A program made the position numbers and the translations under genes. DNA of 64,000 nt from Kitasatospora sp. NBC_00315 (lineage in GTDB: Bacteria; Actinomycetota; Actinomycetes; Streptomycetales; Streptomycetaceae): assembly GCF_041435095.1 (NCBI RefSeq), contig NZ_CP108025.1, positions 2,046,001 to 2,110,000 on the forward strand. Direction: 5' to 3'. Positions 5,585 through 42,099 of the stretch are shown here, piece by piece; positions within the stretch are counted from its first letter, which is position 1; every line of letters starts with the position of its first letter. Under the pieces are notes generated by a model. It was not told the origin of the DNA, did no database searches, and saw only the letters and a list, made by a program, of their open reading frames with translations.

Positions 5585-5674
5585 CGTTTCGTCAGTTCAG
5601 CACGGCACCGATCCGCAGTCCTCGAACGCCTACCAACCGGCGCGCTAGCCCTAGTCCTGACAGAGGTGGAGAAG

Positions 5675-8600
5675 ATGATCCCCGCGTGGCGGCAGTTGCT
5701 GATCGACTGGAACGACACCGCAGCCGAGTACGACTCGGCCCGCACCGTTCACGAGGTGTTCGAGGAGCGGGTCACGGCCGCTCCGGAGGCGACCGCCCTG
5801 GTCTTCGAGGAGACCTCGGTGTCCTACCGGGAGCTGAACGCCCGGGCGAACCGGCTGGCCCGCCACCTGGTGGAGCGCGGCGTGGGCCGGGGCTCGGTGG
5901 TCGGCGTGTTCCTGGAGCGCGGGATCGACCTGGTGGTCGCCACCCTGGCGGTGCTCAAGGCCGGCGCCGGGTACACCCAGCTCGACCCGAAGTTCCCCGC
6001 CGAGCGCCTGGCGGGCCTGCTGGAGCAGACCGGCTCCACGCTCGTGGTGACCCGGACGGCACTGGGTGATCGGCCGGGCCTGCCGGAGCTGTCCCTGGTG
6101 TCGGTGGACGGGGAGGCGGAGTCGATAGCCGGGCGGGAGTCCGGCGACCTCGGGGTCGAGGTGTCGGTGGAGGACGTCGCCTGCGTGATGTTCACCTCCG
6201 GCTCCACCGGCCGCCCCAAGGGCGTCATCGCCCCCCACCGCGCGGTGGTCGGCACCTTCCTCGCCCAGTCCTACGCCGACTTCGGCCCCGGGATGCGCGT
6301 CCTGCAGTGCGCCCCCGTCTCCTGGGACGCCTTCGCCCTCGAACTCTTCGGCGCCATCCTCTTCGGCGGCACCGCGGTCCTCCAACCCGGCCAGGACCCG
6401 GAGCCCGCCGTCATCGCCCGCCTCATCGCCCAGCACCACATCACCACCGTCCACGTCTCCGCCAGCCTGCTCAACTTCCTCCTCGACGAGTACCCCGGCG
6501 TCTTCACCGGCGTCCGCCAGATCATGACCGGCGGCGAGGCCGCCTCCGTCGCCCACGTCCGCCGCGCCCTCACCGACTACCCCGGCATCCGACTCGTCAA
6601 CGGCTACTCCCCCGCCGAATCCATGATCTTCACCACCACCCACACCATCACCACCACCGACACCGAAACCGGCACCATCCCCGTCGGCAAACCCATCACC
6701 AACAAACGCGTCTACGTGCTGGACGCGGCCATGCGCCCGGTGCAGGTCGGTACCGTCGGCGAGCTCTACATGGCCGGCGTGGGGCTGGCCCGCGGCTACG
6801 CCAACCGGCCCGACCTCACCGCCGAACGCTTCGTCGCCCACCCCTGGGGCAACCCCGGCGAACGCATGTACCGCACCGGCGACCTCGTCCGCTGGACCAC
6901 CGACGGCACCCTCGAATACGCCGGCCGCGCCGACACCCAGGTCAAGATCCGCGGCTTCCGCGTCGAACCCGCCGAGATCGAGACCGTCATCGGACGCCAC
7001 CCCCACGTCGTCCAGTGCGCCGTCCTCGTCCGCGAGGACCGCCCCGGCGACAAACGCCTCACCGCCTACATCGTCCCCACCCCCGACCGGAGCATCGAGG
7101 TTCAGGAGCTGCGGGCGCACACCGCGCAGGCCCTGCCCGAGTACATGGTGCCCGCCGCCTTCGTCACCCTCCAGACGCTGCCGCGCACCGCCAACGGCAA
7201 GCTCGACCGCCGGGCCCTTCCCGTACCGGAGTACGTCGCGGCCGCCGCCGGCCGCCCGCCCCGCACCCCGCGCGAGGAGATCCTCTGCGGTCTCTACGGC
7301 GAGATTCTCGACGTCCCCGCCGTCACCGTCGACGACAGCTTCTTCGACCTCGGCGGCCACTCCCTGCTCGCCGCCCGCCTGATCAGCCGTGTCCGCAAGC
7401 TGCTGGGTGTCGAGCTGGCGATGCACACCCTGTTCGAGGCGCCCACCGTCGCGGAGCTGGCCGAGCACCTCGCATCGGCCACCGCCGAGGACACCCGCCC
7501 CGTGCTGGCCCGTGCCGAGCGGCGGCCGGAGCGCATGCCGCTCTCGCCCTCCCAGCAACGCCTCTGGTTCATCGATCAGTTGGACAACGGCAGCGCCACC
7601 TACAACGTGGTCCGCGCGGTGAAGGTCCGGGGCGGGTTCGACCACGGCGTGCTCGCCGAGGCGCTCACCGACGTGGTCGCACGGCACGAGAGCCTGCGCA
7701 CCGTCTACCAGTCGGTCGACGGGCGGCCGATCCAGTGGGTGGTGCCCGCCGAGGCGGCCCGGCCGGTGGTCGAGCACGCCGACTGCCCGGCCGAGGAGCT
7801 GCCCGCCCGGATCGCCGCCGCGACCGGGTACACCTTCGACATCGCCGCCGAACTCCCTCTGCGGGCCTGGGTGTTCCGGCAGTCCCCGACGGAGCACGTG
7901 GTGGTGCTGGTGCTGCACCACATCGCCACCGACGGCTGGTCGATGGCCCCGCTGATGGAGGACATCACCACCGCCTTCGCCGCGCGGTCCACGGGCGGCG
8001 AGCCGCTCTGGGACGAACTGCCGGTCCAGTACGCGGACTACACCCTCTGGCAGCGCGAGCTGCTCGGCGACGAGGACGACCGGGAGAGCCGCTCCGCCCG
8101 CCAGCTCGCCTACTGGGAGGAGCGGCTGAGCGAGAGCCCGGAGGAACTGCGGCTGCCCTACGACCGGCCGCACCCCACCACACCGAGCGGGCGCGGCGGT
8201 GTCGTCCCGCTGCGGCTGGACGCCGAGCTGCACGCGCGTCTGCTGGAGGTGGCCCGCGCCAACCACGCCACCCTGTTCATGGTGCTGCAGTCGGGGCTCG
8301 CCACGCTGCTCACCCGGCTCGGCGCCGGCACCGACCTGCCGATCGGAGCGGTCACCGCGGGCCGCACCGACGAAGCACTGGACGACCTCGTCGGCCTGTT
8401 CCTGAACACCCTGGCCCTGCGCCTGGACACCTCGGGCAATCCGACCTTCGCCGAGCTGCTCGCCCGGACCCGCGCGGTCGACCTGGCGGCGTACGCCCAC
8501 CAGGACGTCCCCTTCGAGCGGCTCGTCGAGGTGCTGAACCCCGTCCGGTCACTGGCCCGCCACCCGCTGTTCCAGGTGATGTTCGTCCTGCAGAGCAACG

Positions 8601-11600
8601 ACCGCGGCCGTCTGGAGCTCACCGGCGCCGAGGTGGAGGTCGAGGCCGTCCGCACCGGTCAGGCCAAGCTCGACCTGCTGATCGAGGCCACCGAGGAGGC
8701 CACGGCCGACGGCGGACCGGGCGGGATCGAGGTGGTCCTCGACTACGCGCTGGACGTCTTCGACCGCTCCACCGTCGAACGGCTGGCCGCCGCCTACCTC
8801 CGGGTGCTGGACACCGTCTCCACCGGCACCGATCGGCGGATCGACTCGATCGAGGTGATGTCGGTCGAGGAGCGGTACCAGGTGTTGGAGGGGTTCAACG
8901 ACACGGCGGCGGAGTACGACGCGGCGCTCGGCGTCCACCAGGTGTTCGAGCAGCGGGTCGCGGCAGCCCCGGACGCGGTGGCGCTCGTCTTCGAGGACAC
9001 CACCCTCACCTACGGCGAGCTGAACGCCCGCGCCAACCGCCTCGCCCGCCACCTACTGGCCCGCGGCGCCACCCGGGGCGCCATCGTCGGCATCCACCTC
9101 GAACGCGGCATCGACCTCGTCGTCGCCACCCTCGCCGTCCTCAAGGCCGGCGCCGGCTACACCCAACTCGACCCCAGGTTCCCCGCCGAACGCCTCACCG
9201 GCCTGATCCACCAGACCGGCACCACCCTGCTCATCACCACCCACACCCTCACCGACCGACTCACCCTCCCCGGCCTCACCCCCCTGTGCCTCGACACCGA
9301 AGCCGACGACATCGCCCGACACGACCCCACCGACCTGCCCAGCACCACCACCCCGGACGACGTCGCCTGCGTGATGTTCACCTCCGGCTCCACCGGCCGC
9401 CCCAAGGGCGTCATCGCCCCCCACCGCGCGGTCGTCGGCACCTTCCTCGCCCAGACCTACGCCGACTTCGGCCCCGGGACGCGCGTCCTGCAGTGCGCCC
9501 CCGTCTCCTGGGACGCCTTCGCCCTCGAACTCTTCGGCGCCATCCTCTTCGGCGCCACCGCCGTCCTCCAACCCGGCCAGGACCCCGAACCCGCCACCAT
9601 CGCCCGCCTCATCCAGGAACACCACATCACCACCGTCCACCTCTCCGCCAGCCTGCTCAACTTCCTCCTCGACGAATACCCCGGCGTCTTCACCGGCGTC
9701 CGCCAGATCATGACCGGCGGCGAAGCCGCCTCCGTCACCCACATCCACCGCGCCCTCACCGACCACCCCGGCATCCGACTCGTCAACGGCTACTCCCCCG
9801 CCGAATCCATGATCTTCACCACCACCCACACCATCACCACCACCGACACCCAAACCGGCACCATCCCCGTCGGCAAACCCATCACCAACAAACGCGTCTA
9901 CCTCCTCGACACCACCCTCAACCCCGTCCCCATCGGCGTCACCGGCGAGATCTACATGGCCGGCACCGGCCTCGCCCACGGCTACACCGGCCAACCCGAC
10001 CTCACCGCCGAACGCTTCATCGCCCACCCCTGGGGCAACCCCGGCGAACGCCTCTACCGCACCGGCGACCTCGGCCGCCGACACCCCGACGGCACCATCG
10101 AACACGCCGGCCGCGCCGACTCCCAGATCAAGATCCGCGGCTTCCGCGTCGAACCCGCCGAGATCGAAACCGCCGTCGGACGCCACCCCGACGTCGCCCA
10201 GTGCGCCGTCCTCGTCCGGGAGGACACCCCGGGAGACAAGCGCCTCACCGCCTACGTCGTCCTCGCCCCGGACCGGAGCGTCGAGGCCCAGGCACTGCGC
10301 GCCCACTGCGCCGACCTGCTCCCCGAGTACATGGTCCCCGCCGCCTACGTCCAGCTCGACGCCCTGCCGCGCACCGCCAACGGCAAGCTGGACCGTCGCG
10401 CCCTGCCCGCCCCCGAACACACCACCGACGCTCAGGGTCGCGCACCGCGCACCCCGCGCGAGGAGATCCTCTGCGGCCTCTACGCGGAGATCCTCGACCT
10501 CCCCGCCGTCACCATCGACGACGGCTTCTTCGACCTCGGCGGCCACTCCCTGCTCGCCGCCCGCCTCATCTCCCGCATCCGCACCACACTCGGCGCCGAA
10601 CTCACCATGCGTGCCCTCTTCCAGGCTCCGACGGTGGCCGGCCTGACCGGCCGGCTGGAGCGGAGCGCCGCCGTCCGGCCCGCGCTCGTCCCGCAGCAGC
10701 GCCCCGAGCCGATGCCGCTCTCCTTCGCGCAGCAGCGGCTCTGGTTCATCGACCAGATCGAGGGCCCCGACGCCACGTACAACATCCCGCTCGCCGTCCG
10801 GCTGCACGGCGCGATCGACCGGCCGGCGCTCGCCCTGGCGCTGGCCGACGTGGTCGGCCGGCACGAGGCGCTGCACACCCGGTACCCGGCCGTCGACGGC
10901 ACGCCGTACCAGCAGCTGATGGACGCCGACGAGCGCTCGGTGCCGCTCGCGCACACCTGGTGCGCCGAGGAGGAGCTGCCCGTCAGGCTCGCGGCCGACG
11001 CCCGGCGCCCCTTCCATCTCGGCAGCGAACTGCCCTTCCAGGCGACCCTGTTCAGCGTGACCGAGCAGGACCACGTGCTGCTGCTGGTGCTGCACCACAT
11101 CGCCGGTGACGGTTGGTCGATGGGCCCGCTGCTGCGGGATCTCACCACCGCGTACAGCGCGCGGATCGCGGGGGCGGAGCCGCAGTGGCCGCAACTCCCG
11201 GTCCAGTACGCCGACTACGCCCTGTGGCAGCGCGAGCTGCTCGGCTCCTCCGACGATCCGGACAGCCTGCTCTCCTCCCAGCTCGCCTACTGGGTCGACC
11301 AGTTGGCGGACCTGCCGGGGGAGATCGCGCTGCCGCGCGACCTGGCGGCGCCCGCCGTCGCCTCGCACCGGGGCGCCGCCGTCCCGCTGGTGCTCGACGC
11401 CGGGTTGCACACCCGGCTGCTCGAACTCGCCCGGGCCCACCAGGTCACCCTGTTCATGGTCCTCCAGGCCGCGTTGGGCGCGACCCTGACCCGATTCGGG
11501 GCCGGCACGGACCTGCCGATCGGCTCACCGGTCGCCGGCCGCACCGACGAGGCGCTGGACGACCTGGTCGGGTTCTTCGTCAACACGCTCGTGCTGCGCA

Positions 11601-14600
11601 CCGACACCTCCGGCGACCCGACCTTCGCCGAACTCCTCGACCGGGTCCGGGAGACCGACCTCGGCGCCTACGCCCACCAGGATCTGCCGTTCGAGCGGCT
11701 GGTCGAGGCGCTCAACCCGGTCCGGGCCGAGGGCCGGAACGCGCTGTTCCAGGTGATGCTGGTGCTGCAGAACGCGGACGCCGGCGCCCTGGAGGTCGAC
11801 GGACTGCGGGCCCGGGTCGAGCGGCTCGCGGTCGACCGCGCCAAGTTCGACCTCACCATCGGCGCGGTCGAGACCCACCTGGCCGACGGAGCGCCCGGCG
11901 GGATCGAGGTCTGCTTCGAGTACGCGACGGATCTGTTCCTGCCGGCCACGGCCGAGCGGCTCGCGCACGCGCTGGTCCGCACGCTCGCGGCGGCCGCCTC
12001 GGACCCGTCCGTGCGGGTCGGCGCCCTCCCGGTGCTGTCCGAGGACGAACGCCACGACCTGCTGACGGGCTTCAACGACACGGCGGCGGAGTACGACGCG
12101 TCGCTCGGCGTCCACCAGGTGTTCGAGCAGCGGGTCGCGGCAGCCCCGGACGCGGTGGCGCTCGTCTTCGAGGACACCACCCTCACCTACGGCGAGCTGA
12201 ACGCCCGCGCCAACCGCCTCGCCCGCCACCTACTGGCCCGCGGCGCCACCCGGGGCGCCATCGTCGGCATCCACCTCGAACGCGGCATCGACCTCGTCGT
12301 CGCCACCCTCGCCGTCCTCAAGGCCGGCGCCGGCTACACCCAACTCGACCCCAGGTTCCCCGCCGAACGCCTCACCGGCCTGATCCACCAGACCGGCACC
12401 ACCCTGCTCATCACCACCGAGCGGCTCACCGACCCGCTCCGGCTCCCCGGCACCACACCCGTCCACCTCGACACCGAGGCCGCGGCCATCGCCGGCCAGG
12501 ACTGCACCAACCCGGACGTGCCGGTGTCCGTCGAGGACGTCGCCTGCGTGATGTTCACCTCCGGCTCCACCGGCCGCCCCAAGGGCATCCTCGCCCCCCA
12601 CCGCGCGGTCGTCGGCACCTTCCTCGCCCAGACCTACGCCGACTTCGGCCCCGGGACGCGCGTCCTGCAATGCGCCCCCGTCTCCTGGGACGCCTTCGCC
12701 CTCGAACTCTTCGGCGCCATCCTCTTCGGCGCCACCGCCGTCCTCCAACCCGGCCAGGACCCCGAACCCGCCACCATCGCCCGCCTCATCGCCCAGCACC
12801 ACATCACCACCGTCCACCTCTCCGCCAGCCTGCTCAACTTCCTCCTCGACGAATACCCCGGCGTCTTCACCGGCGTCCGCCAGATCATGACCGGCGGCGA
12901 AGCCGCCTCCGTCACCCACATCCACCGCGCCCTCACCGACCACCCCGGCATCCGACTCGTCAACGGCTACTCCCCCGCCGAATCCATGATCTTCACCACC
13001 ACCCACACCATCACCACCACCGACACCCAAACCGGCACCATCCCCGTCGGCAAACCCATCACCAACAAACGCGTCTACCTCCTCGACACCACCCTCAACC
13101 CCGTCCCCATCGGCGTCACCGGCGAGATCTACATGGCCGGCACCGGCCTCGCCCACGGCTACACCGGCCAACCCGACCTCACCGCCGAACGCTTCATCGC
13201 CCACCCCTGGGGCAACCCCGGCGAACGCCTCTACCGCACCGGCGACCTCGGCCGCCGACACCCCGACGGCACCATCGAACACGCCGGCCGCGCCGACTCC
13301 CAGATCAAGATCCGCGGCTTCCGCGTCGAGCCCACCGAGATCGAGACCGCACTGCTGCGACACCAGGGCGTGAGCCAGGCCGTGGTGACGGTCCGCGAGG
13401 ACACCCCCGGCGACAAGCGCCTCACGGCCTACCTCGTCACCGGCCCCGGATCCGACCTCGACAGCAGGGCCCTGCGTACCCACTGCGCAGGGCTGCTGCC
13501 CGAGTACATGGTCCCCGCCGCCTTCGTCATCCTCCAGACGCTGCCGCGCACCGCCAACGGCAAGCTCGACCACCGGGCCCTGCCCGCACCCGAACACACC
13601 ACCGACGCGCAGGGCCGCGCACCCCGCACCCCGCGCGAGGAGATCCTCACCGCCCTGTACGCGGAGATCCTCGGCCTCCCCACCGTCACCATCGACGACA
13701 GCTTCTTCGACCTCGGCGGCCACTCCCTGCTCGCCGCCCGCCTCATCTCCCGCATCCGCACCACACTCGGCGCCGAACTCCCCATCAGGGCCCTGTTCCG
13801 CACGCCCACGGTCGCCGGCCTCGCCGAGCACCTGGAGACCTCGGCCGACGACCACCTCCGCCCCGCCCTCACCCGCGTCGAGCGGCGCCCCGACCGGCTC
13901 CCGCTCTCCCCCGCCCAGCAACGCCTCTGGTTCATGGACGGGATGGAGCAGGGATCGGTCTACAACGTGCCGGTCACCCTGGCCCTGCGCGGCGAGGTGG
14001 ACGCCGGGGCGCTCGACGACGCGCTCGGCGATCTGCTGGAGCGCCACGAGAGCCTGCGTACCCGCTTCCCCTCCCAGGACGGCGGGCCCGTCCAGCACGT
14101 CACCGGCCCGGCCGAGGCGCGGGCGGAGTTCGTCCTGCGCCGCACGCGGTGCTCGGCCGGGGAGGTCGAGGGCCTGGTGGCGGCAGCCGCCACCCACCGC
14201 TTCGACCTCGCCGAGGAACTGCTGCTGCGGGCGCACCTGTTGTCCGTCTCGCCGACCGAGCACACGCTGGTGCTGGTCCTGCACCACATCGTCAGCGACG
14301 GCTGGTCGATGTGCCCGCTGCTGCGCGACCTGGCGCAGGCGTACACCGCGCGGGCCGAACCGGGCACGGCCCCGCAGTGGGACGAACTCCCGGTCCAGTA
14401 CGCCGACTACACGCTCTGGCAGCGCGAGCTGCTCGGTGACGAGGCGGATCCGGGGAGCACCTTCCGACGCCAGGTCGACTACTGGACGAAGCAGTTGGCG
14501 GACGTACCCGAGGAACTCACCCTGCCCCTGGACCGGCCGCGCCCCGCCGTCGCGGGCCACCGGGGCGGCCTGCTCTCGGTCCGCACCGGAGCGGAGCTGC

Positions 14601-17092
14601 ACGCGGGTCTGCTGGAGCTGGCCCGCACGCGCCGGGTCACCCTGTTCATGGTCCTCCAGGCCGCGCTCGCGACCACCCTGACCCGCTTCGGGGCCGGTAC
14701 CGACCTGCCGATCGGCTCACCGATCGCCGGCCGCACCGACGAGGCGCTGGAGGACCTGGTCGGGTTCCTGGTCAACACGCTGGTGCTGCGCACCGACACC
14801 TCCGGCGACCCGACCTTCGCCGAACTCCTCGACCGGGTCCGGGAGACCGACCTCGCCGCCTACGCCAACCAGGACATCCCCTTCGACCGGCTGGTGGAGG
14901 TGCTCAACCCGACCCGCTCGCTCGCCCGGCACCCGCTGTTCCAGGTGATGCTGGCCCTGCAGAACGTCCGGCAGGCGCAGCTGGCGCTGCCCGGCATCGA
15001 GGTCGAGCAGGCGCCGGTCTCCACCGGCGGTGCCAAGTTCGACCTGATGGTCGCCGTGGCCGAGGCACAGGACACGGCCGGTGCGCCGCTGGGCCTGACG
15101 GTCGCGGTCGAGTACGCCACCGAGCTGTTCGACGCCCGGACCGCCGAGCGGCTGGCCGACGGCCTGCTGCGGGTGCTGGAGAGCGCCGTGGCGGGCGCGG
15201 ACGTCCCGCTGAGCTCCTTCGAGGTGATGGCGCAGGAGGAGCGGCGGCTGGTCCTGGAGGGCTGGAACGACACCGGCGCCGACTACCCCGCCGAGCGCTC
15301 CGTCCAGGAGCTCTTCGAGGAACAGGCCGCCCGGTTCCCGCAGGCCACCGCGCTGCTCTTCGAGGGCGTCGGTCTCGGCTACGCCGAGCTGAACGAACGT
15401 GCCAACCGTCTCGCGCACCACCTGCGAGCCTGCGGCGTCGGCACCGACCAGGTCGTCGCCGTCCACCTCGAACGCGGCCCCGACCTCGTGGTCGCCCTGC
15501 TCGCCGCCCTCAAGGCCGGCGCCGGGTACACCCTGCTGGACACCGACTACCCCCGGGAACGGCTCCAGGCCGTCCTGGAGGACACCGGGGCGCCCCTCGT
15601 CGTCACCCGCGCCGCCCTCGCCCCCGCCCTCGCCGCCCTGCCCGTCCGGCTGGTCGACATCGCCGACCCCGCCGTAGCCGCGCAGCCCGCCACCGACCCC
15701 GCCGTGCCCACCCCGCCCGACGCCATCGCCTGCGTGATGTTCACCTCCGGCTCCACCGGTCGTCCCAAGGGTGTCGTCGCCTCCCACCGCACCATCGCCC
15801 GTACCTTCTTCGCCCAGACCTTCGGCCGCTTCCACCCCGGCGAGGTCCACCTCCAGTGCGCCCCCGTCTCCTGGGACGCCTTCGCCCTCGAACTCTTCGG
15901 CGCGCTCCTGCACGGCGGCACCACCGTCCTGCATCCGGGGCAGAAGCCCGAGCCGGCGGTCATCGCCGAGCTCGTCGCCGCGCACGGGGTGACCTCGATG
16001 TTCCTCTCCGCCGGCCTGTTCGCGGTGATGGTGGACGACTACCCGCAGATCTTCGAGGTGCTGCGCTGCGTCTCCACCGGCGGGGAGGCGCCCTCGCTCG
16101 CCCACCTGCGGCGGGCCAGGGCGGACTTCCCCGGCCTGCGGCTGGTGCACGCCTACGGCCCGGTCGAGAGCATGGTCTTCGCCACCCAGCACGAGGTCGG
16201 CCCGGCCGACCTCACGGCGGCCGTGGTCCCGATCGGCGCCCCGATCCCGAACTCCGCCACCTACGTCCTGGACGGCGCGCTGCGCCCCGTCCCGGTCGGC
16301 GTGGTCGGCGAACTGTACATCGCGGGGCCCGGGTTGGCGCGCGGCTATGCCAACCGGCCCGACCTGACCGCGGAGCGCTTCGTGGCCGGCCCCCACCTCG
16401 GCGGCGCACGGATGTACCGGACCGGCGACCTCGTGCGCTGGAACGCGGCGGGCGAGCTGGAGTTCACCGGACGGGCGGACGCCCAGGTGAAGATCCGCGG
16501 CTTCCGGATCGAACCGGCCGAGATCGAGTCCGCGCTGCTGCGGCACCCCGGTGTGGGACAGGTCGTGGTGATGGTCCGCGAGGACCGGCCGGGCGACAAG
16601 CGGCTGGTGGCCTACCTGGTGGCCGCCGCCGGGCGGGAGCTGGATCCGGCCGCCCTGCGCGGCCACGCCGTCGAGGCCATGCCCGAGTACATGGTCCCGT
16701 CCTCCTTCGTCGTGATGGAGGCACTACCGCTCGGCGCCACCGGCAAGGTGGACCGCAAGGCACTGCCGGCACCGGACTACGGCGCCGAATCCCAGGGCCG
16801 CGAACCCCGCAACCCCCGGGAGGAGATCCTCTGCGGGCTGTACGCCGAACTCCTGGGGCTGCCCGCCGTCACCATCGACGACAGCTTCTTCCGCCTCGGC
16901 GGCCACTCCCTGCTCGCCGCCCGGCTGATCAGCCGCGTCCGCACCGCGCTCGGCGCGGAACTCCGGATGCGCACCCTCTTCCAGAGCCCGACCGTCGCCG
17001 AGCTGGTCGAACGACTCGGCGACGCTTCCGACACCCCTCGGCGCGCCCGTCCGGCGCTGCGCCGGCGCTCCCGGAACGGAGAGAACGGATGA
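5675..17092 (+). CDS. Non-ribosomal peptide synthetase 1, A-T-C-A-T-C-A-T-C-A-T
   Basis: About 3805 residues encoding a loading module and three elongation modules. It starts directly with an A domain after a short linker, so module 1 loads without a condensation domain. Phosphopantetheine serines in LGGHSL are at about residues 563, 1625, 2684 and 3745. Condensation motifs HHIATDG, HHIAGDG and HHIVSDG begin at about 748, 1807 and 2870, all intact, with no epimerization domain. By alignment to GrsA, the pocket residues of A1, A2 and A3 read D-A-L-H-M-G-G-I-F-K and those of A4 read D-A-L-F-S-G-A-V-F-K. The first recalls aliphatic (Val-like) codes except for His at the fourth position; neither resembles Asp/Asn codes. 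I prefer ATG 5675, which follows AGAGGTGGAG, over GTG 5666. The stop overlaps the ATG of NRPS 2. T4 has FFRLGGHS where the others have FFDLGGHS, FF(D/E). Confidence 0.95.
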   Translation: MIPAWRQLLIDWNDTAAEYDSARTVHEVFEERVTAAPEATALVFEETSVSYRELNARANRLARHLVERGVGRGSVVGVFLERGIDLVVATLAVLKAGAGYTQLDPKFPAERLAGLLEQTGSTLVVTRTALGDRPGLPELSLVSVDGEAESIAGRESGDLGVEVSVEDVACVMFTSGSTGRPKGVIAPHRAVVGTFLAQSYADFGPGMRVLQCAPVSWDAFALELFGAILFGGTAVLQPGQDPEPAVIARLIAQHHITTVHVSASLLNFLLDEYPGVFTGVRQIMTGGEAASVAHVRRALTDYPGIRLVNGYSPAESMIFTTTHTITTTDTETGTIPVGKPITNKRVYVLDAAMRPVQVGTVGELYMAGVGLARGYANRPDLTAERFVAHPWGNPGERMYRTGDLVRWTTDGTLEYAGRADTQVKIRGFRVEPAEIETVIGRHPHVVQCAVLVREDRPGDKRLTAYIVPTPDRSIEVQELRAHTAQALPEYMVPAAFVTLQTLPRTANGKLDRRALPVPEYVAAAAGRPPRTPREEILCGLYGEILDVPAVTVDDSFFDLGGHSLLAARLISRVRKLLGVELAMHTLFEAPTVAELAEHLASATAEDTRPVLARAERRPERMPLSPSQQRLWFIDQLDNGSATYNVVRAVKVRGGFDHGVLAEALTDVVARHESLRTVYQSVDGRPIQWVVPAEAARPVVEHADCPAEELPARIAAATGYTFDIAAELPLRAWVFRQSPTEHVVVLVLHHIATDGWSMAPLMEDITTAFAARSTGGEPLWDELPVQYADYTLWQRELLGDEDDRESRSARQLAYWEERLSESPEELRLPYDRPHPTTPSGRGGVVPLRLDAELHARLLEVARANHATLFMVLQSGLATLLTRLGAGTDLPIGAVTAGRTDEALDDLVGLFLNTLALRLDTSGNPTFAELLARTRAVDLAAYAHQDVPFERLVEVLNPVRSLARHPLFQVMFVLQSNDRGRLELTGAEVEVEAVRTGQAKLDLLIEATEEATADGGPGGIEVVLDYALDVFDRSTVERLAAAYLRVLDTVSTGTDRRIDSIEVMSVEERYQVLEGFNDTAAEYDAALGVHQVFEQRVAAAPDAVALVFEDTTLTYGELNARANRLARHLLARGATRGAIVGIHLERGIDLVVATLAVLKAGAGYTQLDPRFPAERLTGLIHQTGTTLLITTHTLTDRLTLPGLTPLCLDTEADDIARHDPTDLPSTTTPDDVACVMFTSGSTGRPKGVIAPHRAVVGTFLAQTYADFGPGTRVLQCAPVSWDAFALELFGAILFGATAVLQPGQDPEPATIARLIQEHHITTVHLSASLLNFLLDEYPGVFTGVRQIMTGGEAASVTHIHRALTDHPGIRLVNGYSPAESMIFTTTHTITTTDTQTGTIPVGKPITNKRVYLLDTTLNPVPIGVTGEIYMAGTGLAHGYTGQPDLTAERFIAHPWGNPGERLYRTGDLGRRHPDGTIEHAGRADSQIKIRGFRVEPAEIETAVGRHPDVAQCAVLVREDTPGDKRLTAYVVLAPDRSVEAQALRAHCADLLPEYMVPAAYVQLDALPRTANGKLDRRALPAPEHTTDAQGRAPRTPREEILCGLYAEILDLPAVTIDDGFFDLGGHSLLAARLISRIRTTLGAELTMRALFQAPTVAGLTGRLERSAAVRPALVPQQRPEPMPLSFAQQRLWFIDQIEGPDATYNIPLAVRLHGAIDRPALALALADVVGRHEALHTRYPAVDGTPYQQLMDADERSVPLAHTWCAEEELPVRLAADARRPFHLGSELPFQATLFSVTEQDHVLLLVLHHIAGDGWSMGPLLRDLTTAYSARIAGAEPQWPQLPVQYADYALWQRELLGSSDDPDSLLSSQLAYWVDQLADLPGEIALPRDLAAPAVASHRGAAVPLVLDAGLHTRLLELARAHQVTLFMVLQAALGATLTRFGAGTDLPIGSPVAGRTDEALDDLVGFFVNTLVLRTDTSGDPTFAELLDRVRETDLGAYAHQDLPFERLVEALNPVRAEGRNALFQVMLVLQNADAGALEVDGLRARVERLAVDRAKFDLTIGAVETHLADGAPGGIEVCFEYATDLFLPATAERLAHALVRTLAAAASDPSVRVGALPVLSEDERHDLLTGFNDTAAEYDASLGVHQVFEQRVAAAPDAVALVFEDTTLTYGELNARANRLARHLLARGATRGAIVGIHLERGIDLVVATLAVLKAGAGYTQLDPRFPAERLTGLIHQTGTTLLITTERLTDPLRLPGTTPVHLDTEAAAIAGQDCTNPDVPVSVEDVACVMFTSGSTGRPKGILAPHRAVVGTFLAQTYADFGPGTRVLQCAPVSWDAFALELFGAILFGATAVLQPGQDPEPATIARLIAQHHITTVHLSASLLNFLLDEYPGVFTGVRQIMTGGEAASVTHIHRALTDHPGIRLVNGYSPAESMIFTTTHTITTTDTQTGTIPVGKPITNKRVYLLDTTLNPVPIGVTGEIYMAGTGLAHGYTGQPDLTAERFIAHPWGNPGERLYRTGDLGRRHPDGTIEHAGRADSQIKIRGFRVEPTEIETALLRHQGVSQAVVTVREDTPGDKRLTAYLVTGPGSDLDSRALRTHCAGLLPEYMVPAAFVILQTLPRTANGKLDHRALPAPEHTTDAQGRAPRTPREEILTALYAEILGLPTVTIDDSFFDLGGHSLLAARLISRIRTTLGAELPIRALFRTPTVAGLAEHLETSADDHLRPALTRVERRPDRLPLSPAQQRLWFMDGMEQGSVYNVPVTLALRGEVDAGALDDALGDLLERHESLRTRFPSQDGGPVQHVTGPAEARAEFVLRRTRCSAGEVEGLVAAAATHRFDLAEELLLRAHLLSVSPTEHTLVLVLHHIVSDGWSMCPLLRDLAQAYTARAEPGTAPQWDELPVQYADYTLWQRELLGDEADPGSTFRRQVDYWTKQLADVPEELTLPLDRPRPAVAGHRGGLLSVRTGAELHAGLLELARTRRVTLFMVLQAALATTLTRFGAGTDLPIGSPIAGRTDEALEDLVGFLVNTLVLRTDTSGDPTFAELLDRVRETDLAAYANQDIPFDRLVEVLNPTRSLARHPLFQVMLALQNVRQAQLALPGIEVEQAPVSTGGAKFDLMVAVAEAQDTAGAPLGLTVAVEYATELFDARTAERLADGLLRVLESAVAGADVPLSSFEVMAQEERRLVLEGWNDTGADYPAERSVQELFEEQAARFPQATALLFEGVGLGYAELNERANRLAHHLRACGVGTDQVVAVHLERGPDLVVALLAALKAGAGYTLLDTDYPRERLQAVLEDTGAPLVVTRAALAPALAALPVRLVDIADPAVAAQPATDPAVPTPPDAIACVMFTSGSTGRPKGVVASHRTIARTFFAQTFGRFHPGEVHLQCAPVSWDAFALELFGALLHGGTTVLHPGQKPEPAVIAELVAAHGVTSMFLSAGLFAVMVDDYPQIFEVLRCVSTGGEAPSLAHLRRARADFPGLRLVHAYGPVESMVFATQHEVGPADLTAAVVPIGAPIPNSATYVLDGALRPVPVGVVGELYIAGPGLARGYANRPDLTAERFVAGPHLGGARMYRTGDLVRWNAAGELEFTGRADAQVKIRGFRIEPAEIESALLRHPGVGQVVVMVREDRPGDKRLVAYLVAAAGRELDPAALRGHAVEAMPEYMVPSSFVVMEALPLGATGKVDRKALPAPDYGAESQGREPRNPREEILCGLYAELLGLPAVTIDDSFFRLGGHSLLAARLISRVRTALGAELRMRTLFQSPTVAELVERLGDASDTPRRARPALRRRSRNGENG
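6104..7088 (+). repeat. A1 adenylation core, near-identical to A5 core
   Basis: About 985 bp that match 18856-19840 almost base for base, including silent positions. A divergent patch of about 60 bp lies near 6715-6775. Within this block codons shift to C-ending and A-ending forms (GAA, CAA, CGA, CTC), while the flanks prefer GAG, CAG, CGG and CTG. This indicates recent duplication or gene conversion. Confidence 0.85.
8894..10152 (+). repeat. A2 adenylation domain, near-identical to A3
   Basis: Two stretches, 8894-9241 and 9359-10152, match 12071-12418 and 12536-13329 at a constant offset of 3,177 bp with only a few differences. The intervening piece of about 117 bp, before the FTSGSTG motif, differs freely. 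The codon shift seen in A1/A5 is even stronger here. Confidence 0.85.
12071..13329 (+). repeat. A3 adenylation domain, partner of the A2 block
   Basis: Partner copy of 8894-10152. The match ends abruptly after the FRVE motif, at 13329, exactly where the C-terminal subdomain of the A domain begins. This is typical of core-domain exchange. Confidence 0.85.
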
Positions 17093-20000
17093 TCCCGCTG
17101 TCGTACGCCCAGCGGCGCCTCTGGTTCATCGACCGCTTGGAGGGGCCGAGCGCCACCTACAACGTGCCGGTGGTCCTGCGCCTGACCGGCGAGCTCGACG
17201 TCCCCGCGCTGCGCGGCGCCCTCGCGGACGTGGTGGCCCGCCACGAGAGCCTGCGCACCCTGTTCCCCGAGCAGGACGGCCACCCCTACCAGCACATCCT
17301 CGATCCGGCCGAGGCCGTCCCGGCCCTGGAGGTGATCCGCACCACGGAGACCTTCCTCGCCCGCCGGCTCCAGGACGCCTCCCGGTACGTCTTCGACCTG
17401 GCCGGTGAAGTCCCCCTGCACGCCCGGCTGTTCGCGGTGGGGCCGCGGGAGCACGTGCTGCTGGTGGTGATGCACCACATCGTCAGCGACGGCTGGTCCC
17501 TCGGACCGCTGCTGCGCGACCTGACCGAGGCGTACACCGCCCGCCGCGGCGGCGGCGAGCCGCAGTGGGACGAACTGGAGGTCCAGTACGCCGACTACAC
17601 GCTCTGGCAGCAGGAGCTGCTCGCCGACGAGGAGGACCCGGGCAGCGTCGCCGGGAGCCAGCTCGCCCACTGGAAGGAGCAGTTGGCGGACCTCCCGGAG
17701 GAGCTGCGGCTCCCGCTGGACCGGCCGAGGCCCAGCGTGCCGAGCTTTCGCGGCGACTCGGTGCTCGCCGAGACCGGGCCGGAGCTGCACCACCGGCTGC
17801 AACAGCTGGCCGGCGACGAGAACGCCACGCTCTTCATGCTGCTCCAGGCCGCCTTCTCGGCGGTGCTGAGCCGCTTCGGCGCCGGGACGGACGTCCCCCT
17901 CGGCACCCCGGTGGCGGGCCGCCCGGACGAGGCACTGGAGGACCTGGTCGGGTTCTTCGTCAACACGCTGGTGCTGCGCACCGACACCTCCGGCGACCCG
18001 ACCTTCCGCGAGCTGCTCGGCCGGGTCCGCGACACCGACCTGGTCGCCTTCGAGAACCAGGACATCCCGTTCGACCGGCTGGTGGAGCTGCTCAACCCGG
18101 TCCGTTCCGGCTCCCGGCACCCGCTGTTCCAGGTGATGCTGGTCCTGCAGAACAACGCCCAGGGCGAGCCGGCCCTGCCGGAGCTGGAGGTCCGGGGGGA
18201 GACCACCTCGACCGGCGCCGCGAAGTTCGACCTGACGATGGCCGTCCGCGAGCGCTTCGACACGGACGGCCGCCCGCAGGGGCTGGCCTTCGGCCTGGAG
18301 TACGCCACCGACCTCTTCGATGCGGGCACCGCCGAACGGCTGCTCGCCGCGACCCTCCGGTTGCTGGCCGCCGTGGCCGGCGCGCCCGACGCGCCGATCG
18401 GACGGCACGGCGTCCTGGCCGAGGAGGAGCTGCACCAACTGCTGGTGGAGTGGAACGACACCTCCGCCGAGTACGCCTCGGACCGCTGCGTCCACGAGCT
18501 CTTCGAGGAGCAGGTCGCGCGGACCCCGGACGCGGTGGCGCTGGTCTTCGAGGACGTCTCGGTGTCCTACCGGGAGCTGAACGCCCGGGCCAACCGGCTG
18601 GCCCGCCACCTGGGCGAAAGCGGCATCGGCCGGGGCTCGGTGGTCGGCGTGTTCCTGGAGCGCGGGATCGACCTGGTGGTCGCGACGCTGGCCGTCCTCA
18701 AGGCCGGCGGCGGCGGCTACACCCAGCTCGACCCGAAGTTCCCGACCGACCGGCTGACCGCCGTGCTCGGCGAGATCCGCGCCGAGGCCGTGGTCACCTG
18801 CGACGAGCTGGCGGACCGGCTGGCGGATTCGGGCGCCCGGTTGCGGTACGTCCGGGTGGACGGGGAGGCGGAGTCGATAGCCGGGCGGGAGTCCGGCGAC
18901 CTCGGGGTCGAGGTGTCGGTGGAGGACGTCGCCTGCGTGATGTTCACCTCCGGCTCCACCGGCCGCCCCAAGGGCGTCATCGCCCCCCACCGCGCGGTGG
19001 TCGGCACCTTCCTCGCCCAGTCCTACGCCGACTTCGGCCCCGGGATGCGCGTCCTGCAGTGCGCCCCCGTCTCCTGGGACGCCTTCGCCCTCGAACTCTT
19101 CGGCGCCATCCTCTTCGGCGGCACCGCCGTCCTCCAACCCGGCCAGGACCCGGAGCCCGCCGTCATCGCCCGCCTCATCGCCCAGCACCACATCACCACC
19201 GTCCACGTCTCCGCCAGCCTGCTCAACTTCCTCCTCGACGAATACCCCGGCGTCTTCACCGGCGTCCGCCAGATCATGACCGGCGGCGAAGCCGCCTCCG
19301 TCGCCCACGTCCGCCGCGCCCTCACCGACTACCCCGGCATCCGACTCGTCAACGGCTACTCCCCCGCCGAATCCATGATCTTCACCACCACCCACACCAT
19401 CACCACCACCGACACCGAAACCGGCACCATCCCCGTCGGCAAACCCATCACCAACAAACGCGTCTACGTCCTGGACCACGCACTGCGCCCCGTACCCCGA
19501 GGCGTCACCGGCGAGCTCTACATGGCCGGCGTGGGGCTGGCCCGCGGCTACGCCAACCGGCCCGACCTCACCGCCGAACGCTTCGTCGCCCACCCCTGGG
19601 GCGACCCCGGCGAACGCATGTACCGCACCGGCGACCTCGTCCGCTGGACCACCGACGGCACCCTCGAATACGCCGGCCGCGCCGACTCCCAGGTCAAGAT
19701 CCGCGGCTTCCGCGTCGAACCCGCCGAGATCGAGACCGTCATCGGACGCCACCCACACGTCGTCCAGTGCGCCGTCCTCGTCCGCGAGGACCGCCCCGGC
19801 GACAAACGCCTCACCGCCTACATCGTCCCCACCCCCGACCACGACCTGAGCAGTCAGGCCCTGCGCACCCACTGCGCCGACCTGCTCCCCGAGTACATGG
19901 TCCCCGCCGCCTTCGTCCGACTCGACGCCCTGCCCCGGACCAACAACGGCAAGCTGGACCGCCGCGCGCTGCCCGCACCCGCCTTCGGCGCGGACTCCCA

Positions 20001-23000
20001 CGGACGCGCGCCCCGCACCCCGCGCGAGGAGATCCTCTGCGGCCTGTTCGCGGAGATCCTCGACCTCCCCGCCGTCACCATCGACGACAGCTTCTTCGAC
20101 CTCGGCGGCCACTCCCTGCTCGCCGCCCGCCTCATCTCCCGCATCCGCACCACACTCGGCGCCGAACTCGGCATCCGGACGCTGTTCCGCACGCCCACCC
20201 CCGGCGGCCTCGCCGACCACTTGGACAGCGCCACCACCCAGGACAGCCGCCCCACCCTGCGCCGGACCGAGCGGCCGGAACGCCTCCCGCTCTCCCCCGC
20301 CCAGCAACGCCTCTGGTTCGTCGGCCAGTTGGAGGGGCCGAGCGCGACCTACAACCTGCCCGCCGCGCTGCGCCTGCGGGGCGCACTGGACCGGCCGGCG
20401 CTGACCGAGGCACTGGCCGATCTGATCGGACGCCACGAGGCCCTGCGCACCCGGTTCCCCGCCCAGGACGGGCAGCCCGCCCAGGAGATCGTGCCGACGG
20501 CCGAGGCCCGTGAGCTGCTCCCGCTGCCCGTGACGGAGCTCGTCCCGCGACCGGGGGAGGACCCGGAGGAGGCGCTCACCCGCGCGGTGGACGCGGCCTG
20601 CACCGGGGTCCTCGACCTCGCCACCGGGCTGCCGCTGCGCACCGAGCTGATCCGCGTCGCCGAGGACGACCACGTCCTCGTCCTGGTGATGCACCACATC
20701 GCCAGTGACGGCTGGTCGCTGGGCGTCCTGCTCCGGGATCTGACCGCCGCCTACCGGGCGCGGCGCTCCGGCGAGGCGCCCGACTGGGAGCCGCTGCCGG
20801 TCCAGTACGCCGACTACACCCTCTGGCAGCGCGAGCTGCTCGGCGACGACGAGGACGGATCGAGCCGCGCCAACCGCCAGAGCACCTACTGGAAGGAGCA
20901 GTTGGCCGGCCTGCCGGAGGAGACCAGGCTGCCGGTCGACCGCCCGCGCTCCCCCGTGCCCAGCCACCGCGGCTACGCCGTGAAGGCGCTGCTGGGCGCC
21001 GAGCACCACCGCGGACTGGAGCGGCTGGCCCGCAGCGGCCAGGTCACCATGTTCATGGTGCTGCAGGCCGCCCTCGCCACCCTGCTCACCCGGCTCGGCG
21101 CCGGCACCGACCTGCCGATCGGCTCCGCGATCGCCGGCCGCAACGACGAGGCACTGGACGACCTGGTCGGGTTCTTCGTCAACACGCTGGTGCTGCGCAC
21201 CGACACCTCCGGCGACCCGGCCTTCACCGAACTCCTCGGCCGGGTGCGGGAGACCGACCTCGCCGCGTACGCCAACCAGGACATCCCCTTCGACCGGCTG
21301 GTGGAGGCCGTCAACCCGGCCCGCTCGCTGGCCCGGCACCCGCTGTTCCAGGTGATGCTGGTCCTGCAGAACCAGCAGAGCCCCGGCGGCGGGCTGGACT
21401 TCGGCGACGTCCGGGCCGAGCCGATACCGGTCGGCCGTGGCTCCTCGAAGTTCGACTTCACCGTGGGGGTCGAGGAGTTCCGCGCCGAGGACGGCTCCGC
21501 CGGCGGCATGGAACTGCTGCTGGACTACTCCACCGACCTGTTCGACGAGTCGACCGCGACCCGGATGATCGACTCCCTGGTCCGGCTGCTGGAGTCGGTG
21601 GTCGCCGAACCGGGCCTCGCGATCAGCCGGTTGGAGATCCTCTCGGACGCCCAGCACGCCGAGCTGACCGCGACGCCCCCGGCCCCGCGGCTGCCCGACA
21701 CCACCCTGTGGCGGCGGTTCGCCGAGCGTGCCGCCGAGGCACCGGAGGCCACCGCCCTGGTCTTCGGCCGGCAGCGCCTCGGCTACCGCGAACTCGCCGA
21801 ACGGGCCGGTCGGCTGGCCCACCACCTGGCGGCGAACGGGGTCCGCCGGGGCGATCTGGTCGGGGTGCACCTGCACCGCGGTCCCGACCAGGTGGTGGCC
21901 CTGCTGGCGGCCCTGGCCGCCGGCGCCGGATACACCATGCTGGACACCGAGTTCCCGCCCGAACGGCTGTCCGCCGCGCTGGCCGCGACCGGCGCCGCGC
22001 TCGTGGTGACCGAGCCCGCCCTGCGGGAGCGGTTGGACACCGGCGCGACCGTGGTCGACGTCGACGATCCGGTGCTGGCCGGCCTCCCGGCACGGGCGCC
22101 CGACGGACCGTCGCACCGGTCGACGGCCGAGGACATCGCCTGCGTGATGTTCACCTCCGGCTCCACCGGCACGCCCAAGGGCGTCGCCGCCTCGCACCGC
22201 GCCCTGCTGGCCACCTATCTCGACCAGGACTACGCGGACTTCGGCCCCGGCGAGGTCTTCCTGCAGTGCTCGCCGGTGTCCTGGGACGCCTTCGCCCTGG
22301 AGCTGTTCGGCGCCCTGCTGCACGGCGGCACGGTGGTCCTGCAGCCCGGGCAGCGGCCCGAGCCCGCCGAGGTGGCCGCGCTCACCGCCGAGCACGGGGT
22401 GACCATGCTCCAGCTGTCCGCCAGCCTCTTCAACTACCTGGTGGACGAGCACCTTCCGGAGCTGGGGAGCGTCCGCACCGCCTTCACCGGCGGGGAGCCC
22501 GCCTCGGTGGCGCACCTACGGTCCGCACTGGCGGCCCGGCCGGACCTCCGGGTCGTCAACGGCTACGGACCGGCCGAGAGCATGGGTTTCACCACCTGCC
22601 GGACGGTGCTCGCCCAGGACACCCGGGGCGTGTCCGTCCCGATCGGGGTCCCGGTCACCCACAAGCGGGCGTACGTGCTCGACGCCGCACTGCGGCCGGT
22701 GCTGCCCGGTGTGGTCGGCGAGGTGTACCTCGGTGGCGCGGGCCTGGCACACGGCTACCTGGGCCGGCCGGGAACCACCGCCGAGCGCTTCGTCGCGGAC
22801 CCGTACGGGCCGCCCGGGGCCAGGCTGTACCGGACCGGCGACCTGGCCCGCCGCCGCGCCGACGGCGTGCTGGAGTACGCCGGACGCGGGGACGAGCAGG
22901 TCAAGGTCCGCGGCTTCCGGGTGGAGCCCGCCGAGGTGGAGGCCGCCCTGGCCGCGCACCCCTCGGTCGCCCAGGTCGCCGCCGTGGTCCGGGAGGACCG

Positions 23001-24258
23001 GCCCGGTGACCGCTGCCTGGTGGCGTACGCCGTCCCGGCCTCCGGCCACCGGATCGATCCCGCCGCGCTGTCCGCCCACGCCCGCGACCTTCTGCCCGAC
23101 TACCTCGTCCCGTCCGCCGTCGTCCCGCTGGACGCGCTGCCGCGGACGGCCAACGGCAAACTGGACCGGCGCGCCCTGCCGGCTCCCGTCCACCGCGCCG
23201 CCGAGGACGGCCGGGCCCCCCGAACTCCGCGCGAGGAGGTGCTCTGCGGCCTGTTCGCCGAGATCCTCGGCCTGCCCGCGGTGACCATCGACGACAACTT
23301 CTTCGAACTCGGCGGCCACTCCCTGCTCGCCGCCCGCCTGGTCGGCCGGCTCCGCGCCGTCCTCGGTGAGGACCTGACCGTCCGCCGGCTGTTCCTCGCG
23401 CCCACCGTGGCCACCCTGGTCGAACAGCTCGGGGCACCCCGGGCGGACGGGCCGGACGCCCTGGGCGCGGTGCTGGCGCTACGCCGGACGGGCACCCTGG
23501 AGCCGCTGTTCTGCCTGCACCCGGCGGCCGGGATCAGCTGGGTGTACGCCGGGCTGCTCCCCTACCTGGATCCGCAACGGCCGCTGTACGGCCTGCAGTC
23601 ACCCGCTCTGACGGCGCCCGGCACGACGCCGGGGACAGTCCGCGAGCTCGCGGCGCAGCACCTGCGGGAGATCCGGCGGATCCAGCCGCACGGCCCCTAC
23701 CACCTGCTCGGCTGGTCCTTCGGCGGCGTCCTCGCGCAGGAGCTGGCCGTCCGGTTGCAGGCGGACGGCGAGGAGGTCGCCCTGCTGGCCCTCCTGGACG
23801 GCTATCCGGGGCAGAGCCCGCAGGACGGCGGGGTGCCGGACCCGCGCTCGCCCGAACTGCTCGCCGCACTGCTGGACTCGCTCGGGCTGCCCAGGCCCGC
23901 GTCCGGGCCGGTGGGCCCGCAGGACCTGGTCCGGCTGGCCGCCGACCGCAGCAGCCCGCTGGCCGGCCTCGACCGGGAGCAACTGGTGACGCTCGCCGAG
24001 GTGTTCGCCGCCAACATGGCGCTCGGCGGACGGGCGGCCCCTGACCACTTCACAGGTGACCTGCTGTTCTTCCAGGCCACCCGGGGCCGCACCGCCGACT
24101 CGCCCGATCCCGCCGGTTGGCGGCGGCACACGGGCGGCCGGATCGACCTGCACGAGGTGCCCGTGCCGCACGGAGCCATGACCACGCCGGCGGCCCTGGC
24201 GTTGATCGGCCCCGTACTGCGCGCCCGGCTGCGCGCCGCCGACCCCGTCCCGCACTGA
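17089..24258 (+). CDS. Non-ribosomal peptide synthetase 2, C-A-T-C-A-T-TE
   Basis: About 2389 residues encoding modules 5 and 6 and the release domain. Condensation HHIVSDG and HHIASDG lie at about residues 129 and 1202, carrier serines at about 1009 and 2078. The thioesterase spans about 2130-2389 with the nucleophile motif GWSFGG (Ser about 2210), LLDGYP as the likely Asp region and VPHGAM as the likely His. A5 shows the same pocket residues as A1-A3 (D-A-L-H-M-G-G-I-F-K) and has an extra Gly in its LKAGGGGY motif. A6 reads D-A-L-Q-F-G-G-G-F-K. Without epimerization domains a six-residue all-L peptide of the form X-X-X-Y-X-Z is the simplest prediction; whether the TE hydrolyses or cyclizes is not visible. 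The start overlaps the NRPS 1 stop (ATGA). C5 starts immediately, with no recognizable docking domain. Confidence 0.95.
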   Translation: MIPLSYAQRRLWFIDRLEGPSATYNVPVVLRLTGELDVPALRGALADVVARHESLRTLFPEQDGHPYQHILDPAEAVPALEVIRTTETFLARRLQDASRYVFDLAGEVPLHARLFAVGPREHVLLVVMHHIVSDGWSLGPLLRDLTEAYTARRGGGEPQWDELEVQYADYTLWQQELLADEEDPGSVAGSQLAHWKEQLADLPEELRLPLDRPRPSVPSFRGDSVLAETGPELHHRLQQLAGDENATLFMLLQAAFSAVLSRFGAGTDVPLGTPVAGRPDEALEDLVGFFVNTLVLRTDTSGDPTFRELLGRVRDTDLVAFENQDIPFDRLVELLNPVRSGSRHPLFQVMLVLQNNAQGEPALPELEVRGETTSTGAAKFDLTMAVRERFDTDGRPQGLAFGLEYATDLFDAGTAERLLAATLRLLAAVAGAPDAPIGRHGVLAEEELHQLLVEWNDTSAEYASDRCVHELFEEQVARTPDAVALVFEDVSVSYRELNARANRLARHLGESGIGRGSVVGVFLERGIDLVVATLAVLKAGGGGYTQLDPKFPTDRLTAVLGEIRAEAVVTCDELADRLADSGARLRYVRVDGEAESIAGRESGDLGVEVSVEDVACVMFTSGSTGRPKGVIAPHRAVVGTFLAQSYADFGPGMRVLQCAPVSWDAFALELFGAILFGGTAVLQPGQDPEPAVIARLIAQHHITTVHVSASLLNFLLDEYPGVFTGVRQIMTGGEAASVAHVRRALTDYPGIRLVNGYSPAESMIFTTTHTITTTDTETGTIPVGKPITNKRVYVLDHALRPVPRGVTGELYMAGVGLARGYANRPDLTAERFVAHPWGDPGERMYRTGDLVRWTTDGTLEYAGRADSQVKIRGFRVEPAEIETVIGRHPHVVQCAVLVREDRPGDKRLTAYIVPTPDHDLSSQALRTHCADLLPEYMVPAAFVRLDALPRTNNGKLDRRALPAPAFGADSHGRAPRTPREEILCGLFAEILDLPAVTIDDSFFDLGGHSLLAARLISRIRTTLGAELGIRTLFRTPTPGGLADHLDSATTQDSRPTLRRTERPERLPLSPAQQRLWFVGQLEGPSATYNLPAALRLRGALDRPALTEALADLIGRHEALRTRFPAQDGQPAQEIVPTAEARELLPLPVTELVPRPGEDPEEALTRAVDAACTGVLDLATGLPLRTELIRVAEDDHVLVLVMHHIASDGWSLGVLLRDLTAAYRARRSGEAPDWEPLPVQYADYTLWQRELLGDDEDGSSRANRQSTYWKEQLAGLPEETRLPVDRPRSPVPSHRGYAVKALLGAEHHRGLERLARSGQVTMFMVLQAALATLLTRLGAGTDLPIGSAIAGRNDEALDDLVGFFVNTLVLRTDTSGDPAFTELLGRVRETDLAAYANQDIPFDRLVEAVNPARSLARHPLFQVMLVLQNQQSPGGGLDFGDVRAEPIPVGRGSSKFDFTVGVEEFRAEDGSAGGMELLLDYSTDLFDESTATRMIDSLVRLLESVVAEPGLAISRLEILSDAQHAELTATPPAPRLPDTTLWRRFAERAAEAPEATALVFGRQRLGYRELAERAGRLAHHLAANGVRRGDLVGVHLHRGPDQVVALLAALAAGAGYTMLDTEFPPERLSAALAATGAALVVTEPALRERLDTGATVVDVDDPVLAGLPARAPDGPSHRSTAEDIACVMFTSGSTGTPKGVAASHRALLATYLDQDYADFGPGEVFLQCSPVSWDAFALELFGALLHGGTVVLQPGQRPEPAEVAALTAEHGVTMLQLSASLFNYLVDEHLPELGSVRTAFTGGEPASVAHLRSALAARPDLRVVNGYGPAESMGFTTCRTVLAQDTRGVSVPIGVPVTHKRAYVLDAALRPVLPGVVGEVYLGGAGLAHGYLGRPGTTAERFVADPYGPPGARLYRTGDLARRRADGVLEYAGRGDEQVKVRGFRVEPAEVEAALAAHPSVAQVAAVVREDRPGDRCLVAYAVPASGHRIDPAALSAHARDLLPDYLVPSAVVPLDALPRTANGKLDRRALPAPVHRAAEDGRAPRTPREEVLCGLFAEILGLPAVTIDDNFFELGGHSLLAARLVGRLRAVLGEDLTVRRLFLAPTVATLVEQLGAPRADGPDALGAVLALRRTGTLEPLFCLHPAAGISWVYAGLLPYLDPQRPLYGLQSPALTAPGTTPGTVRELAAQHLREIRRIQPHGPYHLLGWSFGGVLAQELAVRLQADGEEVALLALLDGYPGQSPQDGGVPDPRSPELLAALLDSLGLPRPASGPVGPQDLVRLAADRSSPLAGLDREQLVTLAEVFAANMALGGRAAPDHFTGDLLFFQATRGRTADSPDPAGWRRHTGGRIDLHEVPVPHGAMTTPAALALIGPVLRARLRAADPVPH
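18856..19840 (+). repeat. A5 adenylation core, partner of the A1 block
   Basis: Partner copy of 6104-7088 in the second NRPS gene, in the same orientation, 12,752 bp downstream. Only scattered single differences are visible outside one patch near 19465-19525. Confidence 0.85.
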
Positions 24259-25049: not shown

Positions 25050-25269
25050 CCGGTCCGCTCCCCGGGCCTTCCCGGACCGCCTCGCCCGGGCCGCACCGCC
25101 CGGGCCGGCTCCCCAGCCCACGAGCCCCGGCCCGCACCACCGGGCCGGCGATGCCCCGGTCCACCGGGTACCCGCCCGGCACACGTACCCCCGAATGAGC
25201 CTCGCACCCGCGCCACGTACACCCGAACACCCTCCCCCGACAGCCCGCACAGACCCGAGGAGCCCGATC

Positions 25270-33547: not shown

Positions 33548-33653
33548 CCTCGTGGGCGGCGCTCCGGAGGGCCCGGATCACGAGCGAGCGCTCGCGTGTG
33601 CTCCGGCCGGAACCGATTTCCGCACAGCTCCTACACGCACCACCCCTAGCCGC

Positions 33654-42081: not shown

Positions 42082-42099
42082 TTCTGTGGAACGTCGAGA

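Follow-up and report, generated by a model that had tools for sequence, protein, structure and literature searches.

This locus raises the question of which amino acid is selected by an A domain code that a single NRPS assembly line uses four times. The source genome is 8.3 Mb, GC-rich and belongs to the family Streptomycetaceae, and the window analysed is a stretch of 64,000 nucleotides (G000:C1:2046001-2110000). A first-pass annotation made from the letters of the window had described a six-module NRPS at 5675-24258 with no epimerase and with all HHxxxDG motifs intact. It read the product as an all-L hexapeptide, X-X-X-Y-X-Z, in which X was an unnamed and probably aliphatic residue. The Pfam domain counts agreed with this architecture. 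NRPS1 (5666..17092, + strand) is organized as A1-T-C-A2-T-C-A3-T-C-A4-T (four A, three C and four T domains) and NRPS2 (17089..24258, + strand) as C-A5-T-C-A6-T-TE (two A, two C, two T and one TE). Both ORFs are uninterrupted and collinear and together carry six A-T modules, five C domains and a terminal TE, the collinear C-A-T modules, intact motifs and release TE of a modular type I NRPS. HHxxxDG was intact in 5/5 C domains, the T-domain serine in 6/6 T domains and the A10 lysine in 6/6 A domains. PF00668 would detect epimerization domains as well as C domains, and as all five PF00668 domains are placed between a T and the following A domain, Pfam gave no E domain in NRPS1 or NRPS2. There is no leading C domain, so the assembly line would start on a free amino acid.

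The pocket segments are all on the + strand. Those of A1 (6257..6685), A2 (9443..9871), A3 (12620..13048) and A5 (19009..19437) read DALHMGGIF(K), that of A4 (15806..16234) reads DALFSGAVF(K) and that of A6 (22216..22644) reads DALQFGGGF(K). Multiple alignment thus reproduced the reported codes, DALHMGGIFK three times (A1-A3) with DALFSGAVFK (A4) in NRPS1 and DALHMGGIFK (A5) with DALQFGGGFK (A6) in NRPS2. The pocket assignment also held against a solved structure, with the residues agreeing in a gap-free alignment to crystallised SlgN1.

Modules 2/3 and 1/5 are internal duplications with 82-83% DNA identity, and the A2 and A3 pocket segments are 98.6% identical. The four identical codes are therefore not four independent events and the repetition is partly duplication. 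These close duplicates (A2/A3 and A1/A5) would fit identical codes that are simply a by-product of recent module duplication in a cluster that is decaying or silent, but we regard this as very improbable because the catalytic motifs and reading frames are all intact and DALHMGGIFK is kept in A domains of other species at just ~54-64% identity. Maintenance of the code at that distance indicates a real specificity. A cluster in a genome of the same GTDB genus (G123; L026+L165) argues in the same direction, as it has the same gene order (mutS, mutE, asnA, gltS, MFS, two NRPS, TE, SnoaL-like, BCAT) with three DALHMGGIFK domains. It differs from the cluster in the window by an additional amidase gene, a leading C domain and the final codes DSVFYGQVAK, DSMYYGQVTK and DAMFYGMVAK, and its HTH regulator lies upstream. 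The TE was also used to look for an orthologue of the whole six-module line in 70 genomes of the genus; the top match was 54% identical, so the exact cluster was not met again there.

To place the codes among characterized domains, A1 was compared with all PDB sequences. Its closest solved single A domain was SlgN1 (4gr5/4gr4, 575 bits), and the second entry was 8xjz (467 bits in two matched stretches). Over the pocket region SlgN1 was again the top match, with no gaps and 164 bits versus 105 for the Val-type PA1221, which activates Val and whose aligned code is DALWLGGTFK. The SlgN1 code read off the alignment is DALQIGGGFK, a single-residue difference from A6. The DALQ-GGGFK pattern is thus present in A6, A1, A2, A3 and A5 have His278 and Ile330, and A4 is more divergent. 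The alignments agree with the description of the main code as near the Val code with His at the fourth position. Assignment as Val-type A domains (Trp278 in DALW-GGTFK) was rejected, as the domains in the window carry His, Gln or Phe at 278. From sequence, the family resembles a Val-type pocket with Gln or His substituted for Trp278, and such a pocket would fit a Val/Ile-shaped side chain with a polar end, for example 3-methyl-Asp or 3-methyl-Asn. A review gives the SlgN1 substrate as (2S,3S)-beta-Me-L-Asp, for streptolydigin (PMC11253843).

A maximum-likelihood tree placed all six A domains of the window inside the SlgN1-type clade (support 98/94). A6 fell in a Gln subgroup close to SlgN1, A1, A2, A3 and A5 fell in a His-rich subgroup (97/98) and A4 paired with a Val-like DALWLGGVFK domain (99/97). 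The His-code subclade also contains DALYIGGIFK and Ile-like DAFFYGAIFK domains and is therefore not purely polar. The code strings tried were absent from 5.39 million open papers, in line with the earlier statement that no known peptide has this pattern. The codes had also been called unfamiliar, which stands for published matches, but A6 is one residue from the SlgN1 code and all six domains share its clade. The X-X-X-Y-X-Z pattern likewise needs revision, because A6 carries nearly the SlgN1 code, so that Z is probably a residue of the same type as X.

The genes upstream of the NRPS, which the first-pass annotation had not connected to the codes, encode a streptolydigin-type methylaspartate cassette. 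The first gene, mutS (1..158, + strand; Pfam B12-binding PF02310), encodes a SlgE-type glutamate mutase small (B12-binding) subunit and is a left-flank ORF that starts ~320 bases left of the window (L003:15682-16158). It is followed on the + strand by mutE (155..1501; Pfam Met_asp_mut_E 2e-88), predicted to encode the large subunit of the mutase that converts glutamate to 3-methylaspartate, with MutE scoring under the TIGR01503 equivalog cut-off (172 vs 390 bits). The asnA-like gene (1576..2595, + strand) encodes a SlgZ-type class II aaRS paralogue without an anticodon domain. It matched NCBIfam 'asparagine synthetase A' (NF005052) over cut-off at 455 bits, its solved relatives are archaeal AsnA (3p8t) and AsnRS, and we propose that it amidates the beta-carboxyl of 3-methylaspartate. 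Its stop codon is overlapped by the start codon of a gltS-like gene for a SlgE3-type FMN protein (2592..3881, + strand; Pfam Glu_synthase 4e-22). A predicted MFS exporter (3866..5227, + strand; Pfam MFS_1/MFS_3) and an MbtH-like protein (5363..5584, + strand; Pfam MbtH 4e-28; at G000:C1:2051375) complete the upstream genes. MbtH is a separate gene here, whereas in SlgN1 an MbtH-like domain is fused to the A domain. Downstream on the - strand are a LuxR-type regulator (26450..27727; Pfam GerE) and an XRE-HTH regulator (27852..29357; Pfam HTH_31); most related clusters have a homologue of the latter (~37%) directly ahead of mutS. The NRPS does occupy 5675-24258, but the biosynthetic region is wider and runs from ~320 bases left of the window (mutS) to ~29.4 kb.

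In streptolydigin biosynthesis slgE1-E2-E3 are described as the 3-methylaspartate supply, SlgZ as asparaginyl-tRNA-synthetase-like and SlgE3 as a suggested source of glutamate (PMC5357945). The Streptomyces lydicus NRRL ISP-5461 locus (L054) encodes the 4GR5 protein exactly (299 residues, zero mismatches) and next to it carries a homologue of each of the four cassette genes at 56-71% identity (62% for mutE, 71% for asnA and 68% for gltS), and its A domain is of the same clade. Streptolydigin contains one 3-methylaspartate in a PKS-NRPS tetramic acid and SlgN1 has a Gln code, whereas the locus in the window has six A domains of this clade in a pure NRPS line and the His code variant.

The association between the cassette and the A domains was assessed in 100 related loci chosen by their AsnA-like gene. 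In nearly all of them mutS, mutE and gltS were found within a few kb. An NRPS with a SlgN1-type A domain was present in 19/20 AsnA-selected loci of this family, the domain running off the contig in L025. Among 298 family genomes the AsnA-like gene was found in 55 and a SlgN1-type A domain in 49, with both in 42, the AsnA-like gene without the A domain in 13 and the A domain without the AsnA-like gene in 7 (Fisher p=3e-32; the genome counts here and below are uncorrected for shared ancestry). Within the 49 genomes with a SlgN1-type A domain, those with Gln or His at 278 had the cassette gene in 41/42 cases, and Tyr or Asn was found at 278 in 6/7 cassette-less genomes. The assembly of the one cassette-less Gln-code genome (G133), in which no AsnA was found, is fragmented. 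Genomes with the His code come from four genera. With the SlgN1 match and this association, the simple aliphatic reading of DALHMGGIFK, and with it the proposed nature of X, was dropped.

The same cassette was also seen in a widespread Streptomyces/Kitasatospora cluster (L031-L042 and many of L063-L115) with codes DVENIGAVTK, DALQFAGGLK, DWWCMGLVHK and DAQDFGLVDK and a P450-like gene. In other loci (L048, L065, L068, L072 and L075, Kribbella-type, and many Amycolatopsis loci) the fetched flanks held the cassette without an A domain, which suggests further uses of 3-methyl-Asp/Asn.

Directly after the TE are adjacent + strand genes for a SnoaL/NTF2-like small protein (24666..25049; Pfam SnoaL_2 6e-18), whose relatives have the ketosteroid-isomerase fold and which is a candidate beta-carbon isomerase, and for its partner, a class IV branched-chain aminotransferase (BCAT; 25195..26343; NCBIfam PRK13357 at 406 bits and ilvE_II, both over cut-off). 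In G123, G099, G053, G041 and G074 this pair likewise comes after the TE, and in L094, L062 and G193 it lies next to the cassette. Counting only SnoaL-like matches with an adjacent BCAT, cassette genomes with His278 had the pair in 9/9 cases and those that have only Gln278 had it in 1/32 (p=3e-8). The single Gln-code genome with the pair, G193, also has the aliphatic A domains DALWRGGVFK and DALLIGAVMK, and the pair there could make allo-Ile. Two further cassette clusters with the pair (L185 and L186, in G135 and G176) carry the odd code DAFHLGAMV, and G135 has two copies of this cluster near opposite chromosome ends.

Two-enzyme systems of an aminotransferase and a small isomerase, as in desotamide/marformycin, invert the beta-carbon of Ile to give L-allo-Ile (PMC7459860); a literature search for a link between SnoaL-like proteins and allo-Ile found nothing. 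By analogy of gene types, the SnoaL/BCAT pair suggests editing of C-beta stereochemistry, here in the company of a methyl-aspartate cassette. An all-L product is reasonable at C-alpha. The analogy with the L-allo-Ile systems raises another reading, in which the pair makes L-allo-Ile (or Ile/Val), DALHMGGIFK is the code for this product and the methylaspartate cassette feeds A6 only. That the pair tracks the His code, that Ile-like codes occur inside the His subclade and that DALHMGGIFK is otherwise Val-like all fit this reading. However, G099 and G123 have the cassette and His-code domains but lack any Gln-code domain that could load what the cassette makes, His/Gln278 accompanies the cassette across the family genomes, and a change of Trp to His has no obvious reason if the side chain is purely aliphatic. 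G099 has the cassette, the pair and the codes DALHMGGIFK, DMPQLGLVWK, DASTVAAVCK (twice) and DIAQMGCVWK. With one His-code domain and no aliphatic domain, the simplest interpretation is that the cassette and the pair both serve the His-code domain. We therefore consider selection of allo-Ile improbable.

Together these data make it likely that the locus directs a hexapeptide built mostly of 3-methyl-aspartate-family residues. In the pathway we propose, MutS/MutE would convert L-glutamate to (2S,3S)-3-methylaspartate, the role reported for the slg homologues, and the SlgZ-type AsnA-like enzyme would adenylate its beta-carboxyl and amidate it to 3-methyl-asparagine. Part of this pool then probably undergoes inversion at C3 by the BCAT/SnoaL-like pair, much as in the L-allo-Ile system. 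Assisted by MbtH, A1, A2, A3 and A5 (His278) would load the cassette product, probably in its C3-inverted form, A4 an aliphatic residue and A6, with its SlgN1-like code, (2S,3S)-3-methyl-Asn or -Asp. Gln or His in place of the Val-code Trp278 could hydrogen-bond the beta-carboxamide of a residue isosteric with Val/Ile. The chain would be X-X-X-aliphatic-X-(MeAsn or MeAsp), and the TE would release this hexapeptide in linear form or as a ring. We consider MeAsx-MeAsx-MeAsx-aliphatic-MeAsx-MeAsx the most likely product, with 3-methyl-asparagine as the main MeAsx unit. By residue arithmetic its neutral mass would be 739.36 as cyclo-(MeAsn5,Val) or 753.38 as cyclo-(MeAsn5,Ile), with 18.01 more for linear forms and 0.98 more if A6 loads MeAsp. 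More specifically, and with somewhat less than even confidence, we suggest that DALHMGGIFK is the code for C3-inverted (2S,3R) 3-methyl-Asn from a six-gene pathway (mutase S/E, AsnA-like, GltS-like, BCAT and SnoaL-like) and that the hexapeptide contains five 3-methyl-Asn/Asp.

A variant compatible with the core of this scheme concerns the acid and the amide. Lys278 is typical of Asp NRPS codes, and neither the His nor the Gln pocket has it, so the pocket looks neutral. This speaks against a version in which the same cassette operates, the A domains take up 3-methylaspartate in its unamidated form and the AsnA-like enzyme amidates after assembly or acts elsewhere, and in which the product would be a polyacidic, maybe metal-binding peptide. 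So does the presence of the AsnA-like gene with the mutase and GltS genes in nearly all loci, although these loci were AsnA-selected. The listed SlgN1 substrate is 3-methylaspartate and not its amide (PMC11253843), which favors this version and means that amidation could follow assembly. We rate direct loading of the acid as possible but unlikely.

Compared with known systems, the parts of the 3-methyl-Asn scheme are of known kinds. The literature searched gave no earlier example of an assembly line with six SlgN1-type modules, of the His code or of a connection between that code and the epimerase-like SnoaL/BCAT pair. Omnipeptin, set beside this locus by its description, is an 11-residue depsipeptide with a single beta-methyl-asparagine that its authors called the first bacterial NRPS product with this residue, in 2019 (PMC6710260). 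In the friulimicin/amphomycin systems a glutamate mutase (GlmA/GlmB) gives the NRPS its 3-methylaspartate (PMC9113097). Those products are calcium-dependent lipopeptides that begin with a fatty acyl group and contain just one 3-methyl-Asp, unlike this locus, where no lipidation genes were seen.

If the C3-inverted 3-methyl-Asn reading is true, the pathway to the building block, the A-domain code that can now be read and the class of peptide would all be new. The link between the His code and the SnoaL/BCAT pair suggests a second use of allo-Ile chemistry. An unreadable code also becomes testable, as Gln278 or His278 in a Val-like pocket would point to loading of 3-methyl-Asp/Asn, and clusters that use it would be flagged by the supply cassette, whose AsnA-like gene is present in 55/298 family genomes. 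The cassette is common in actinomycetes, yet in the literature searched a bacterial NRPS product with beta-methyl-asparagine was first reported in 2019, and many more may await discovery. As 3-methyl-Asn and Gln residues are equal in mass, such peptides could pass as Gln peptides in MS surveys.

Other features were observed around the locus and elsewhere in the genome. Immediately left of mutS, the opposite strand carries a separate PKS/NRPS cluster, read by eye (L003, G000:C1:2030001-2046500), which also has terpene-synthase-like, polyprenyl-synthase-like and P450-like genes. The genome has another glutamate mutase E (60% identical), located in a PKS cluster (L004:1-18300; L002, G000:C1:140001-160000) that we take to resemble vicenistatin-type beta-amino-acid macrolactam clusters. 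After the NRPS cluster the window contains a Pgl/BREX-type phage-defence region (30690-48715), with defence-library matches to PglW (33726-38438), PglX (38435-42022) and BrxC/PglY (44804-48715) and a further, weaker match at 30690-32507.
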